Shown piece by piece: positions 28,513 to 33,306 of a DNA stretch of 41,311 bases. A program made the translations under genes and the position numbers. The stretch's first letter is position 1. Every line of letters begins with the position of its first letter. The notes beneath the pieces are model-generated. The model made no database searches and had not been told where the DNA came from. It saw only the letters and a program-made list of their open reading frames with translations. Source of the DNA: Acidobacteriota bacterium (GTDB lineage: Bacteria; Acidobacteriota; Blastocatellia; Pyrinomonadales; Pyrinomonadaceae). The DNA is taken from assembly GCA_003222895.1 (NCBI GenBank), contig QHXI01000074.1, positions 3,429 to 44,739 on the forward strand, written 5' to 3'.

Positions 28513-31500
28513 CTAACGAATCTTCATTGACGGATCGCCGAATAGGATCCAGGTCCGGCGTACGTCCATGTCGCTGGTCGCGACCTTCGCCTGGCGACTG
28601 GCATCGCCGATCGCGATTGAACTTCCGCCATACAACAACTGAAACATTTTCAAACCCATCTCGTGCTGGCCGTCGGGAATAGTCAGACCGGACGACGCGA
28701 AGCTCGCAACTGCGCCGCCATTCGGCGCTTTCACCAAAGATTCAGCGAGGCTTTGCAACGACGGATCGGCGAAGTATCCGTTCAGACAGTCCATTACGAC
28801 GACAAACGGCAGCCGATTTCCATTCGCCAGCGCCGACGCGTCATTCGAACTGAAGATCGAACCTCCCCAGATGTTCACATTGCCGTGGCCTGAATAAACC
28901 GTCACCGCCTGACCCGAATTGAAATTCGAGATGATGTTCGCGCGAGCATCGGCATCGGAAGCTTGTAAGCGGCGATAGACCCTCTGAATCGGCATCGATG
29001 CCGGCAACGTCGCCCCGACTTGATCATCGGCCGCTTCAAAGTTGAAGTAGTAACTGCCCTGCGCGTCCGCTACGAGCATGGCGCGCTGCGGCGTATTCGC
29101 GGGCGCGTAATTCACGATTTTCGACACGACGAGAGTAGCTTCGGCCGGGGTTCTCACGGGCAAGCGACCGATAGAAATGTCGGCGATGCCGTCGCCGTTG
29201 AAATCGGTGAACCAATCGTCAGACGCAGTTTCCAACGCGGTCGCCGCGCTTGGAATTCCGGTGTCGATCTCTTTGGTAGGAACGAAATCGAGGTTGCCTG
29301 CGCCTGAATAATTGCGCGGATCATAGCTCGCATCGCCCACCAGCAGCACGTACGATGGAGAGCGTGACCAGGTCGTTTTTGCAAGCGAAATGAAATCGCG
29401 AAGAGCCTGCGGCGTGTGCAGACCGTAACTGAATTCATCGAAAATGTTTTCGACGTCCGCAACCGTCACGGTAAATCCCTGCGCTTGTCGTTGCGCAACC
29501 AGTGGAGCCAGCGTGGGAATGAAATCTTTATGAGAAATGATTAGAAAATCGGCGGCGTTGCTGCTTCGATTCAGTGTCGACGGTTGATTCAGGCTGAGCC
29601 ACGCCGGTTGAGAAATTCGATTCGTCGGCAGCGCAATCAAGCGGCGTGCTTTACCTCGCGCGCCCGCAGGAATCGTTGCAGCAAAGGCGCCGCTGCTTGC
29701 CTCGACGATTGGATCAACTTCCTGCACATTGCTCGTATCCGACAGATCGAGGACGCGAATATTCGAGGTGCTAAATCCCTCAACGCGCACCGACAGCGTC
29801 GAGCGCAGACTGAATTGCAGCGCATCGCTGTCAGCGCGAAAGCTATGCGCGTAAACGATGCGAAGGTAATCGATTACGCTCGTGTCGTGACTCGATCCCA
29901 CGGGCGCGAGCTTGACTATATTGTCGCCCTCTATCAGCCACGAGTTGGGGATCGAAAACGTTTGCGTGGTCGCGTCCTGATCGGCGAAAACCATCGTTCC
30001 AACCAACGAGCCGTTGATGAAAACCTTTACTTGGTGAGACTCAACCGATACCCCTTGTAGAGCGACTTGCAATTGCGCCGGCGCACTAGAGGTCGGCTCA
30101 ATATTGTGAAGGTTAACCGTCACCAGAGGGCCGTCGCCAAAGACTACTGCTCCGAAATAGTTCTCCTGATCGCCATTCAAAGCTGCGGAGTAGTACACCG
30201 TTCGATCCTTACGTTGTACGGAATAAGTGAAAGCTGGTGCGGGCGTGGCGGCGAGGGCCGCGTGATTATGTCGTCGCAGGAATCGTGCCGGCTTGCGGCG
30301 GTTACGCCGTCGAGAATTGCGGCGATTGATTCGCTTGGTGACTGTCGCGAATTTCTCAGCGTTGCCCGGACTGTCCTTCCGATCTGAGGACGGCGACTTA
30401 TTTGTCGAGCGCGATGACGCCGACCGCGGTGAGAAATCCCGGCTTCTTTCTGCACTCCGATTGCTGAACGTCGTTGGTTTTGTTTCAGCAGCAGGCTGAG
30501 CAGGCAGCGTGTTCGACGAAACGATCTTTGGTTCTTCGCGGGACCGAGACTTAGCTTCCCTTACCTGATCGTTCGTCACTGATTGAGGCGTAGCAGCGAC
30601 GAGTATGGCCAGATTTGGAAACCAGAAACGCGCCGCGACAATCGCGTTTGACGTTGTGGCGGGCGGCGGCGCCTGCACCGGCACGTCTCCCAGCGTGTGC
30701 AACTCGGCTTTTATGGCAATTCGTTTCCCGGGTTGCGAACCGTTTACTAACCAGTAGACCTGCGTGTCGGTTGTTGCCGTGTCCAGACCCTCGCCCCAGA
30801 ACTCAACGAAATCGGACGCCCCTAATGGACCACTGTCGTGACTGACGCGCATCGCGATTTCGTTGGCCGATACGAACAGTCGTAGATTGGCCGCCTCGCC
30901 GGTCGTATCGAAACCTGCGGCAGCCAATTCGGGTTGCGTGATGTGATACCAGCCACTGCTGCGGACACCGATCTTCAATGCAGGTTGATTTGCTATTGCC
31001 CATTGATCGGCGAGCGATGCGGTCGAAACTGCTTCGGCAGAGTTTGACCGTTCCGATTTGACTTGATCTGAATCCGTCAAGACCGCCTGTATGCTGACGT
31101 TTCGTTCGGCGCCGAGTCTACTCAGCAATAGTGACTGTTGATTCGCAACGGGAGTTCTACTCCACAAAGGCTTGGCTAAACTGCTTGCTGCTGATTCGCC
31201 CTGAAGATCGATTAACTGAACTTCGTACTCGCAATCGACCGTACCATTCGCGTCGAACCATGAATAGAGTTGGGTACGTTTTACGATTAGCACTCCGCCC
31301 GCAATCAGACTCGGATTGATTTGCGTGCGCGAGCCGTTGCGAACGCGGAAGACGTTGAACCCGAGAGCGCCGGAATCGAAACTAGTGCTCCATTCGACGA
31401 GCGCGCCGTTCGACGAAGCAATGGCGCGAACTTGAACAGACGGACCGAACGCAATCTCGGATCGTAATTGGTTGGTTAAGGCAGATCGACGAGGTGTGGC

Positions 31501-31578
31501 ATTGATCAAATTCGCACCGAAGAGCGCCGCGACGAGCGCGAGAGTGACAATTCGATTGAGAAACCGCACGCGTCTCAT
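28513..31578 (-). CDS. Secreted C25 (gingipain-like) cysteine peptidase
   Basis: This 1021-residue exported protein starts with a signal peptide (MRRVRFLNRIVTLALVAALF). Next are beta-sandwich regions up to about residue 330 and a basic Ser/Arg-rich segment at about 341-437. Another beta region leads to a peptidase C25 domain from about 675. The catalytic pair is visible: His898 in VYSGHGN and Cys931 in VMDCLNGYF, 33 residues apart, the same spacing as His211/Cys244 of gingipain RgpB. DYSYDPRN-like and NGDGIADISIGRLPV motifs are also typical. No type IX secretion C-terminal domain is seen. GAGGA precedes the ATG, and a promoter lies at 31600-31628. Last gene of the envelope region; it could process envelope or peptide products, but the target is unknown. 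Confidence 0.88.
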   Translation of the reverse strand: MRRVRFLNRIVTLALVAALFGANLINATPRRSALTNQLRSEIAFGPSVQVRAIASSNGALVEWSTSFDSGALGFNVFRVRNGSRTQINPSLIAGGVLIVKRTQLYSWFDANGTVDCEYEVQLIDLQGESAASSLAKPLWSRTPVANQQSLLLSRLGAERNVSIQAVLTDSDQVKSERSNSAEAVSTASLADQWAIANQPALKIGVRSSGWYHITQPELAAAGFDTTGEAANLRLFVSANEIAMRVSHDSGPLGASDFVEFWGEGLDTATTDTQVYWLVNGSQPGKRIAIKAELHTLGDVPVQAPPPATTSNAIVAARFWFPNLAILVAATPQSVTNDQVREAKSRSREEPKIVSSNTLPAQPAAETKPTTFSNRSAERSRDFSPRSASSRSTNKSPSSDRKDSPGNAEKFATVTKRINRRNSRRRNRRKPARFLRRHNHAALAATPAPAFTYSVQRKDRTVYYSAALNGDQENYFGAVVFGDGPLVTVNLHNIEPTSSAPAQLQVALQGVSVESHQVKVFINGSLVGTMVFADQDATTQTFSIPNSWLIEGDNIVKLAPVGSSHDTSVIDYLRIVYAHSFRADSDALQFSLRSTLSVRVEGFSTSNIRVLDLSDTSNVQEVDPIVEASSGAFAATIPAGARGKARRLIALPTNRISQPAWLSLNQPSTLNRSSNAADFLIISHKDFIPTLAPLVAQRQAQGFTVTVADVENIFDEFSYGLHTPQALRDFISLAKTTWSRSPSYVLLVGDASYDPRNYSGAGNLDFVPTKEIDTGIPSAATALETASDDWFTDFNGDGIADISIGRLPVRTPAEATLVVSKIVNYAPANTPQRAMLVADAQGSYYFNFEAADDQVGATLPASMPIQRVYRRLQASDADARANIISNFNSGQAVTVYSGHGNVNIWGGSIFSSNDASALANGNRLPFVVVMDCLNGYFADPSLQSLAESLVKAPNGGAVASFASSGLTIPDGQHEMGLKMFQLLYGGSSIAIGDASRQAKVATSDMDVRRTWILFGDPSMKIR

Positions 31579-31662: not shown

Positions 31663-32718
31663 TCAATTCACTCCGCCGGTCGTAGCCAAGCGAGCAGCTC
31701 GAAGAAGCCAATTTCCGAATTGATATCGCATTCTTTGCCGCTTGCCGAAAATTCCGTTTACCGTCACCGTGGCGAGAATCGGGTCGGGCCAGCGACGCGC
31801 AAGATCTTTCAGCAATCCAGGCGGGTGCCGGAAATATGATCGAATGGGAGCGCTGTGTTTTAGCGGAGCTTGCAGATGAGCAAACGGTGTCTCCCAGTTT
31901 TTGAGCACGCGAGCAACCAGCCAATCCGGAACCTGTCGCGCCTGATGAGCGACGGAGCCATCGTTTATTTCAGCGCCGAGCAGCGCGTGCGCAATTCCAG
32001 CCACCGACAGAATCCAGTTAGCGCGGCGCTTATCCCGGCCTAAGCAAATGTCCCAATCGAAATCATCGGACATCGTGTCGAGCAGCATCCCAATGTCGCA
32101 CAGCCACAACGGCCGCCACGCCGCATGCTTCAGCAGATGAATCGCCAGCAACGCCAAGTGATCTTCCACTGCCAGCACTCGTACCCTCTCTGCGCCACAT
32201 TGGACAAGTTGCGATCGCGAGAAGACCTCTTCGATCGAACGATCGGCCAGCTCAAACATTTGCAGGTGAAGATCCGTAAAATAGTTGCGCGCATCTTCGC
32301 TTTGCAGTACCCGCGCCGCGGCATCGAAATCCGATGGCCGTACCAGCAAATCAATATCGCCATACGGTCTGAGCGCCGGTTCGGAATAACAACGTGCGAT
32401 CGCCCATCCCTTTACGAGGCTCACTTCGACGTTCGCTTCACGAAATAACCGAAATAGATTTTCAATTTCGGTTTCGTGTGCGCGAGCGCGCAAGGCGAGA
32501 AGACGAAAAGCCTGATGCAGCAATTCACCTGAAGGGGTGTCGCGGAACTCTGTATCGCGAATGCGCCACCAACCGAGACCGGCCGCTCCCGATTCATAGA
32601 GCAGCGGCGCCACGGAGTCGAGCTGTTCCCTCGTTAGCAGACAAGCGTTCGGATGATGCGTGCGCCAGGATTGACGTAACGCTCGAGAGACTAATGTCCC
32701 GCGATTCAAATCAACCAT
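31663..32718 (-). CDS. Nucleotidyltransferase family protein (PF14907-type)
   Basis: This 351-residue protein is a member of the NTP_transf_5 family of minimal nucleotidyltransferases. The core motif is LVKGWAIARCYSEPALRPYG, then DIDLLVRPSD: Lys103-Gly104 and the metal-binding pair Asp121 and Asp123. A helical C-terminal part follows, including DHLALLAIHLLKHAAWRP, the usual HLxxH-like signature. Relatives occur in exopolysaccharide loci and in lasso-peptide and other RiPP clusters, where some modify peptides. No ribosome-binding site is visible before the ATG; it starts 15 bases after the PqqD-knottin stop and is probably co-transcribed with it. It may nucleotidylate a peptide or a sugar; the substrate is unknown. 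Confidence 0.85.
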   Translation of the reverse strand: MVDLNRGTLVSRALRQSWRTHHPNACLLTREQLDSVAPLLYESGAAGLGWWRIRDTEFRDTPSGELLHQAFRLLALRARAHETEIENLFRLFREANVEVSLVKGWAIARCYSEPALRPYGDIDLLVRPSDFDAAARVLQSEDARNYFTDLHLQMFELADRSIEEVFSRSQLVQCGAERVRVLAVEDHLALLAIHLLKHAAWRPLWLCDIGMLLDTMSDDFDWDICLGRDKRRANWILSVAGIAHALLGAEINDGSVAHQARQVPDWLVARVLKNWETPFAHLQAPLKHSAPIRSYFRHPPGLLKDLARRWPDPILATVTVNGIFGKRQRMRYQFGNWLLRAARLATTGGVN

Positions 32719-32733: not shown

Positions 32734-33219
32734 TCACGTGCTGGCGCACACGCCGTCGTTGCACAGGTTCGAGCAACACTGAACACTGGCTCCGCATTGC
32801 GCGCCACCGGGTAGACAGCTCGCCGCTTCGGCGGGCCGAGGGGCAACGATCGACGCGACTACCGGAACTGCAACCGCGGCGGTAAGTCCAAGCGCGCGGA
32901 CCATGTCTCGTCGGTTGATCCCTTGCCGAGTTGGCGGAGGAGCCGGATCGATCAGCAAACGATTGCGCGAGAGCTGATCGAGGGCAAGCCAGACGATCTT
33001 GTCGTCAAGCTTCGCAGTCGCTTTTCTGCTGAGTTCGCGCGTTATTTCAGCGAGACTCTTGCGGCCATCGCAACGCTGCCAAACAAAGGCGGCAGTTTCA
33101 TTAAGGCAATGCGCGCGATCAGTTTCCGTGTCGTAGATCAGAAGTTCATCCGGCAGTTCCTTGATCACCAGGCCTTCTTTGCGGGCAAGTGGTTTTTGCT
33201 GCCGATGATTAGTCTTCAA
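32734..33219 (-). CDS. PqqD/RRE-domain protein fused to Tat-like signal and cystine-knot peptide
   Basis: This 161-residue protein has three parts. Residues 10-92 form a PqqD-type domain (GLVIKELPDELLIYDTETDR, then AHCLNETAAFVW), the leader-recognition fold (RRE) of many RiPP pathways. Residues 101-133 are a twin-arginine-like signal (NRRDMVRALGLTAAVAVPVV, ending APRPAEA). The last 27 residues carry six cysteines at 135, 142, 148, 149, 153 and 158. The spacing C-x6-C-x5-CC-x3-C-x4-C fits the inhibitor-cystine-knot (knottin) consensus. The start is TTG with GGAGG about seven bases upstream. Predicted: an exported disulfide-rich mini-protein carrying its own recognition domain. Alternatives are a membrane-anchored PqqD with a structural Cys tail, or a component of capsule assembly. 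Confidence 0.85.
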   Translation of the reverse strand: MKTNHRQQKPLARKEGLVIKELPDELLIYDTETDRAHCLNETAAFVWQRCDGRKSLAEITRELSRKATAKLDDKIVWLALDQLSRNRLLIDPAPPPTRQGINRRDMVRALGLTAAVAVPVVASIVAPRPAEAASCLPGGAQCGASVQCCSNLCNDGVCAST

Positions 33220-33278
33220 TTCTCTCCTCCAGAGAGTTGCGCGCGCACTTCTTGAGCAGTAGTTGAACTTCGGCGGAA

Positions 33279-33306
33279 ACTATCACGCCAATGCTAATGA
33301 GGTCAA
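33279..33306 (-). promoter_or_regulatory. Promoter of the PqqD-knottin gene
   Basis: On the minus strand TTGACC (33306-33301), a 16-base spacer and GATAGT (33284-33279) give a plausible sigma70-type promoter with a leader of about 53 bases. The knottin gene therefore need not depend on the upstream TPR gene. Confidence 0.55.

Follow-up and report, generated by a model that had tools for sequence, protein, structure and literature searches.

The gene considered here lies at positions 32,734 to 33,219, on the minus strand, of a 41,311-nucleotide stretch of an Acidobacteriota genome (the window). On balance, we read its product as a precursor that would yield a secreted, disulfide-rich peptide. 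In this reading, the leader is itself a folded docking domain of the RiPP recognition element (RRE) type, export is probably by the twin-arginine translocation (Tat) route, and the partners are an HprK-like kinase and often a nucleotidyltransferase. In sequence terms, the family combines the RRE domain, an invariant arginine pair (RR) within a signal, a cleavage-type site of small residues, and a conserved leader followed by a usually faster-changing tail with an almost always even number of cysteines. The architecture, its conservation, the even-cysteine rule and the co-occurrence with the kinase are observed. The parts of the gene are:

32734..33219, stop included, minus strand: precursor gene, 161 amino acids, with PqqD/RRE domain, RR signal and six-cysteine tail (open reading frame, Pfam, homologues, alignment A1)
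32956..33171, minus strand: PqqD/RRE domain, residues 17-88 (PF05402, AlphaFold2 fold, Foldseek)
32824..32916, minus strand: Tat-like signal, residues 102-132, NRRDMVR...AEA (conservation of RR, Pro127 and Ala132)
32737..32823, minus strand: predicted released tail, residues 133-161, with a predicted fold like an inhibitor cystine knot (ICK) (cysteines 135, 142, 148, 149, 153 and 158)

The open reading frame is real, as the family matches, the conserved RR and the even cysteine numbers exceed chance. A first-pass annotation of the window had placed the 161-residue frame correctly, without naming its strand, and had described a PqqD-like N-terminus, RR with a hydrophobic segment ending in AEA, and a tail of the form C-x6-C-x5-CC-x3-C-x4-C. 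All of these are present: RR falls at residues 103-104, AEA at residues 130-132, and the tail is spaced Cys135-x6-142-x5-148,149-x3-153-x4-158. The family was counted from 296 six-frame hits in 262 sources, of which 156 distinct members were kept after removal of 122 duplicates, 16 hits below 90 bits and two with X. Two earlier counts comprised 132 members found by a stricter expression (131 with even tail cysteines) and 138 members from 212 hits of a gene caller (136 even); the gene caller had missed members that longer frames overlap.

The PqqD-like N-terminus was borne out by PF05402 (PqqD), which matches residues 25-66 (E 6e-9) with 36.5 bits against a gathering score of 23.4, is the only Pfam match of the precursor over cut-off, and is listed for 32/32 members of alignment A1 (E<=5). 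Within the PqqD part, Leu39 and Gly52 do not vary in the earlier set (n=138). The AlphaFold2 (AF2) model, built with 16 sequences, shows an RRE-like domain of three strands followed by three helices, with block values of the predicted local distance difference test (pLDDT) of 89-96. When this domain was compared with PDB by Foldseek, ranks 1 to 3 were TbiB1, as TbiB1-leader complexes (best E 2.4e-3, TMt 0.73-0.76), and no match reached E<=0.001. Both sequence and model support an N-terminal domain of RRE type, for which peptide binding is predicted only.

RR and Pro127 are each invariant in 156/156 members, figures to be read with the fact that the member profile spans the signal and tail as well, which biases it towards RR and towards tails with cysteines, though not towards even counts. 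Tat signals carry a motif of the type S/T-R-R-x-hydrophobic-hydrophobic-K/R before a hydrophobic stretch. In this family, the residue before RR is S, T or N in 130/138 members and residue 108 is K or R in 127/138; in the window protein, N precedes RR and M stands where F is usual. In addition, residue 132 is Ala in 129/156 members, and of the 132 members of the stricter-expression set, 84 have A-x-A and 119 have [AVSGT]-x-A at the cleavage-type site. TatC is encoded in the window's genome (PF00902, E 3e-66). Judged from these sequences, Tat export is probable and a cleavage site after Ala132 is likely.

The same segment bears on another reading, in which the signal would stay uncleaved as an anchor, with the RRE inside and the cysteine-rich tail outside, and the protein would be a receptor or sensor reporting to the kinase via its RRE. 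A folded conserved domain ahead of a hydrophobic stretch would suit such a protein, as would the co-occurring kinase and the many variants possible per genome; however, the frequencies of Ala132 and of [AVSGT]-x-A fit cleavage, many tails have only about 30 residues, and the invariant RR with S/T/N before it is the Tat pattern and not that of a plain anchor. We regard a signal anchor as unlikely.

The tails that would follow this cleavage are marked by their cysteines, which are even in number in 150 of the 152 cysteine-bearing members, odd in two, and absent from the other four of the 156. The counts range from 2 to 20 in 33 arrangements, with 6, 10, 14 and 18 among them. In the earlier set (n=138, 136 even), twelve other residues (A, G, S, T, N, P, Q, V, L, D, F and I) are even in 59 to 89 tails. 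As the cysteine counts are nearly all even and those of other residues about 50:50, pairing of cysteine with cysteine is indicated, and the sequences point to cysteines that pair with one another. Clusters of tails with less than 50% mutual identity were even in 104/106 cases (earlier set), though such tails still share ancestry, which keeps binomial figures computed on them from being true probabilities. Similarly, the paralogues fetched from single genomes were even in 17/17 cases in genome G034 (10-20 cysteines) and 15/15 in genome G007 (6-14 cysteines), and among distant relatives 12 cysteine-bearing tails were even and none odd, with further pieces broken or too short to judge. The two odd tails belong to L045 (3 cysteines) and L179 (7 cysteines).

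Several individual tails depart from the common form. L045:8065-8529, with its three tail cysteines, ends abruptly and is possibly frameshifted, and L236 (2 cysteines) may be shortened by a stop. L200, from another Acidobacteriota family, has only two tail cysteines, while L048:9692-10255 holds two knottin-like six-cysteine units in tandem within one tail. L231, L233, L239, L250 and L251 carry the same leader and RR, but their tails lack cysteine and in some cases abound in Asn/Gln, Lys or Ser/Pro.

Two other uses of the cysteines were considered. Lanthionine or sactionine cross-links, which join a cysteine to a non-cysteine residue, need no even cysteine numbers and are disfavoured by the 150 even tails in 152. 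That the cysteines bind metal or pass electrons, instead of forming structural disulfides, we hold to be extremely improbable: even numbers would also suit metal-holding cysteine pairs, and no strong charge marks the tails (median net charge -0.5, spanning -6 to 6), but counts of 6, 10, 14 and 18 occur, the cysteines are arranged in widely differing ways, and the window-type tail has a predicted fold that resembles disulfide knots.

For this tail, the full-length AF2 model (16 sequences) gave pLDDT values of 78 for residues 131-140 and of 86 and 88 for the blocks of 141-160, and AF2 on the tail alone (17 sequences) gave about 92 for the core. Foldseek returned 22 matches for the tail. They include the ICK peptides omega-atracotoxin (TM 0.70/0.83, root-mean-square deviation 0.7 over 24 columns, best E 0.07), nemertide, U3-scytotoxin, conotoxins and SOTI-III, and LEAP-2 and colipase as well. 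A profile of the tail matched venom and plant peptides in PDB, led by Xt3a (E 3.5e-8) and Aca toxin 1 (E 4e-5), in a comparison where cysteine-rich sequences inflate scores. The window's tail is thus predicted from these models to fold like an ICK. The knottin-type peptide proposed in the first-pass annotation is in keeping with an ICK-compatible framework and with the predicted fold, which fall short of being decisive. The six cysteines, whose conservation among orthologues it had named as a check, recur in the same C-C-CC-C-C order in 22/156 members, the window included, and this order is one of the 33 arrangements.

The tails also usually change faster than the leaders. Over 53 pairs with leaders more than 75% alike, the leaders have a median identity of 83% and the tails one of 53%. 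Among the 30 closest pairs listed, the ratio of nonsynonymous to synonymous substitution rates (dN/dS) of the leader is 0.03-0.10 in 25, and dN of the tail is 0.2-0.7 in 25; since tail dS is mostly saturated, faster change is claimed here and positive selection is not. A tandem precursor pair, L036:9680-10953, has leaders 85% identical and tails 31% identical, which looks, from the sequences, like rapid tail change after duplication.

Precursor matches were found in 84/119 genomes of the window's family, with at least 31 matches each in G007 and G034, where the genes are scattered and their tails differ. The window's own genome has a second copy, at C40, which is 47% identical. In a sample of the phylum, 57/396 genomes match (E<=1e-8), 41 of which are counted as strong, and in the phylum of genome G488 (record L127, with a Gemmatimonadetes label) 15/298 genomes match at E<=1e-12. 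For the best 80 of 108 relatives (79 loci), the labels of the records, which are metagenome assemblies, read Acidobacteria, Blastocatellia, Pyrinomonadaceae and the like, with one 'bacterium', two Gemmatimonadetes and one Betaproteobacteria. No description of this precursor architecture was found in open-licence PMC papers.

The proposed partner enzymes are an HprK-like kinase, whose gene immediately precedes that of the precursor in many relatives, and an NTP_transf_5 nucleotidyltransferase, which in the window starts 15 bp after the precursor stop on the same strand:

31663..32718, minus strand: NTP_transf_5 nucleotidyltransferase (PF14907 E 4e-30; alignment A4)

In alignment A4 (n=17), D121 is invariant and D123 nearly so. 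Among the 119 genomes of the family, 79 have both precursor and kinase, five the precursor only, three the kinase only and 32 neither (Fisher p 2e-20). In the phylum sample, the corresponding numbers are 42, 15, 3 and 336 with all 57 matches, and 40, 1, 5 and 350 when 16 weak matches are excluded. Outside the window's family, the kinase was found in 16/16 genomes with a strong precursor match, and five genomes have the kinase without such a match. G007 and G034 have one kinase each for their precursor matches. The window genome's only HprK-like kinase match (G000:C135:15230-16039; L187 9231-10040) has no precursor beside it and adjoins a prolyl-oligopeptidase-type S9 peptidase.

Gene neighbourhoods were compared in 114 contexts, those of the 138 members with at least 1.5 kb on both sides. 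Both enzymes lie within 1.5 kb of the precursor in 37 contexts, the nucleotidyltransferase only in 14 and the kinase only in 11. The order kinase, precursor, nucleotidyltransferase on one strand holds in 35/37 of these triads, with gaps of at most 121 bp before the precursor in 34/37 and at most 151 bp after it in 33/37. The full triad is also present in L127. The nucleotidyltransferase occurs in 83/119 family genomes and adjoins the kinase in G034. Profile searches of PDB with the kinase and the nucleotidyltransferase gave nothing at E<=0.1. The first-pass annotation had overlooked both the nucleotidyltransferase gene and the kinase elsewhere in the genome, and its picture of a stand-alone precursor was incomplete in that the kinase and often the nucleotidyltransferase go with the family. 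Its statement that a radical-SAM partner is lacking holds by a rough motif scan, in which a CxxxCxxC protein of more than 250 amino acids lay within five genes of the precursor in 2/114 contexts, the same protein both times.

A separate peptide gene between the triad genes was also considered, and the gap sizes leave little room for one. This bears on the idea that the RRE serves, in trans, a different peptide that has escaped notice, with the cysteine tail as a secondary addition for export or anchoring. RREs of known systems do bind a separate leader peptide, according to passages of PMC7470986, but in addition to the narrow gaps, the RRE-tail genes of the two multi-copy genomes are scattered with differing tails, and we consider action in trans very improbable.

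Several observations weigh against the favoured reading of a Tat-exported, enzyme-associated, disulfide-rich peptide. The Tat-like signal of the first-pass annotation has the invariant RR and the TatC gene on its side, but curated Tat models stay below cut-off for the window protein (TIGR01409 with 15.0 against 16.7 bits, PF10518 with 12.7 against 22.7 bits), and a Tat model is listed for 8/32 members (E<=5). TIGR04352 (HprK_rel_A), the best NCBIfam match of both kinases scanned, reaches 60.3 and 38.9 bits against a cut-off of 200. Neither enzyme lies within 1.5 kb in 52/114 contexts, and G007 has no nucleotidyltransferase at E<=1e-15 despite its 31 or more precursor matches, so that this enzyme is not obligatory. 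No conserved modification target residue was found in 138 tails; a C-terminal Ser, the residue that lasso kinases phosphorylate, was set aside as a candidate because only 17/138 tails end in Ser/Thr. The structural matches of the tail score weakly, with none of the Foldseek matches reaching E 0.001 and a VIA-align Z of at most 4.0, not high by the tool's own warning. Six distant relatives (four within the 156) have the leader and RR with no cysteine tail, and cysteine-free orthologues are what the first-pass annotation had itself named as refuting its reading, although they occur only among distant relatives outside the Acidobacteria-labelled set. Finally, in L067/L090, one of the 30 pairs listed, similarity is slightly higher in the tail than in the leader, and the saturation of tail dS limits what can be claimed of tail evolution. 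The core of the earlier reading largely survives, with the window gene as one member of a broad kinase-associated family; the self-recognition in cis, the export in folded form, the release and any activity of the peptide stand as proposals.

The remaining features of the window locus, where gene calls were made by a simple custom script and the Pfam scan covered nine proteins between 28.5 and 41.3 kb, namely the precursor with its eight neighbours, are:

33223..33230, minus strand: Shine-Dalgarno sequence GGAGGAGA ahead of the TTG start (sequence)
33279..33306, minus strand: weak promoter-like match TTGACC-16-GATAGT (three sites found, 0.9 expected)
28513..31578, minus strand: C25 cysteine peptidase, PorU-like, candidate processing protease (PF01364 E 9e-82)

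The ribosome-binding site noted in the first-pass annotation is confirmed, as GGAGGAGA at 33230-33223 precedes the TTG start codon of the precursor. The case for the promoter that it proposed is weak: a promoter-like site lies 60 bp upstream on the correct strand, but it is one of three found in 1.9 kb against 0.9 expected in shuffles.

The C25 match at the precursor locus is the only one in the window's genome (E<=1e-10); its C25 domain is clear, and the PorU sortase model NF033707 reaches 233 against 420 bits, below cut-off. In 12 genomes checked, 10/14 C25 genes, in nine genomes, lie within 5 kb of a precursor, a proportion that is biased because these genomes were partly picked since C25 had been seen there. 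G113, G034 and G007, all among the 12, have precursors and no C25 match. The peptidase is a processing candidate and not a required part. It also enters a further explanation, in which the tails would be surface or matrix proteins joined to an exported glycan, with polysaccharide genes giving the sugar and the PorU-like C25 enzyme cutting and attaching. Indeed, 5' of the precursor on the same strand lie genes for two TPR proteins, one unassigned protein, an O-antigen ligase, and WecA-like and WcaI-like glycosyltransferases, and the genome's sole C25 match and the 10/14 proximity would agree with such a linkage; however, that proportion carries the bias of genome choice, three precursor genomes lack a C25 match, the PorU cut-off is unmet, and the dispersed paralogues listed show no recognisable glycan genes adjacent. 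We think a glycan linkage improbable.

If the precursor is a kinase-associated, Tat-exported peptide precursor as we favour, the following route may be proposed. In the cytosol, the RRE would hold the precursor to the HprK-like kinase and, where present, to the NTP_transf_5 enzyme; as the RRE is fused to the substrate, a separate leader motif might not be needed to bring the substrate to the kinase. By analogy with lasso peptides, the two enzymes might modify the tail, adding a phosphate and then a nucleotide or sugar. The Tat-like signal would carry the tail across the membrane, where signal peptidase would cut after the A-x-A-type site and the cysteines would then pair. Genomes usually encode a single such kinase, with anything from one precursor up to at least 31 for it. 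Once released, the peptides would most likely act outside the cell, in antagonism, in protease inhibition or in a surface matrix.

Several known systems resemble parts of this arrangement. In lasso peptide clusters, HprK-like kinases phosphorylate the peptide, and the sugars of pseudomycoidin need a nucleotidyltransferase gene, according to parts of PMC8498205 and PMC9266682. As described there, the clusters of paeninodin and pseudomycoidin are alike in that they combine a PqqD/RRE domain and an HprK-like kinase with an annotated nucleotidyltransferase, all acting on a ribosomal peptide, the likeness to NTP_transf_5 being by annotation only. They differ in that their RRE (B1) is separate and accompanied by a B2 protease and a lasso cyclase, whereas here the RRE lies within the precursor, and the tails, which follow a Tat-like signal, have apparently paired cysteines and seldom end in Ser/Thr. 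Neither a lasso cyclase nor a B2 protease was found among the nine window proteins scanned with Pfam, the only locus scanned for them. The HPr-rel-A system (TIGR04352 kinase and TIGR04353 PqqD chaperone) is similar in its top kinase match, and TIGR04353 is listed for 20/32 members; on the PqqD part of the window protein, this model gives 16.7 bits against 35, below cut-off. Here, by contrast, the matches fall below the model cut-offs where shown, and the PqqD part carries an export signal and a tail.

The NHLP (nitrile-hydratase-like leader)/proteusin peptides likewise have a long folded leader and a short variable core, and one enzyme can serve many precursors (in the portion of PMC12455567 consulted), but in the present family the leader is itself an RRE, export looks Tat-type and the cysteines appear paired together. 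The ICK peptides omega-atracotoxin, U3-scytotoxin, SOTI-III and the conotoxins share the C-C-CC-C-C framework and the predicted fold; here, the framework is bacterial, stands behind an RRE-Tat leader, and is one of many tail types, and the likeness is probably convergent.

Known RREs either stand alone as proteins or form part of larger biosynthetic ones, and they bind the leader of another peptide (PMC7470986, in part). A 2025 survey, in the section concerned, reported that 21% of PF05402-matching proteins exceed the size of a stand-alone RRE without other Pfam annotation, and named them an opening for exploration (PMC12710340); as PF05402 is its only Pfam match over cut-off, the window protein belongs to this oversized sort. 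The family may be one of RRE-guided ribosomal peptides, possibly a separate class. More boldly, and only tentatively, it could be a distinct bacterial ribosomal peptide class of Acidobacteriota and, by record titles, Gemmatimonadota, in which each precursor has its own RRE, an HprK-like kinase is shared, the Tat route is used, and a venom-like, fast-evolving knotted arsenal reaches up to dozens of peptides per genome. A precursor with its own RRE would change how such clusters are found, and the even-cysteine rule over 33 arrangements makes full disulfide pairing directly testable. If the peptides are released, these soil bacteria would possess a large repertoire of stable knotted peptides, and the HprK-like kinase would gain a candidate substrate outside lasso peptides.
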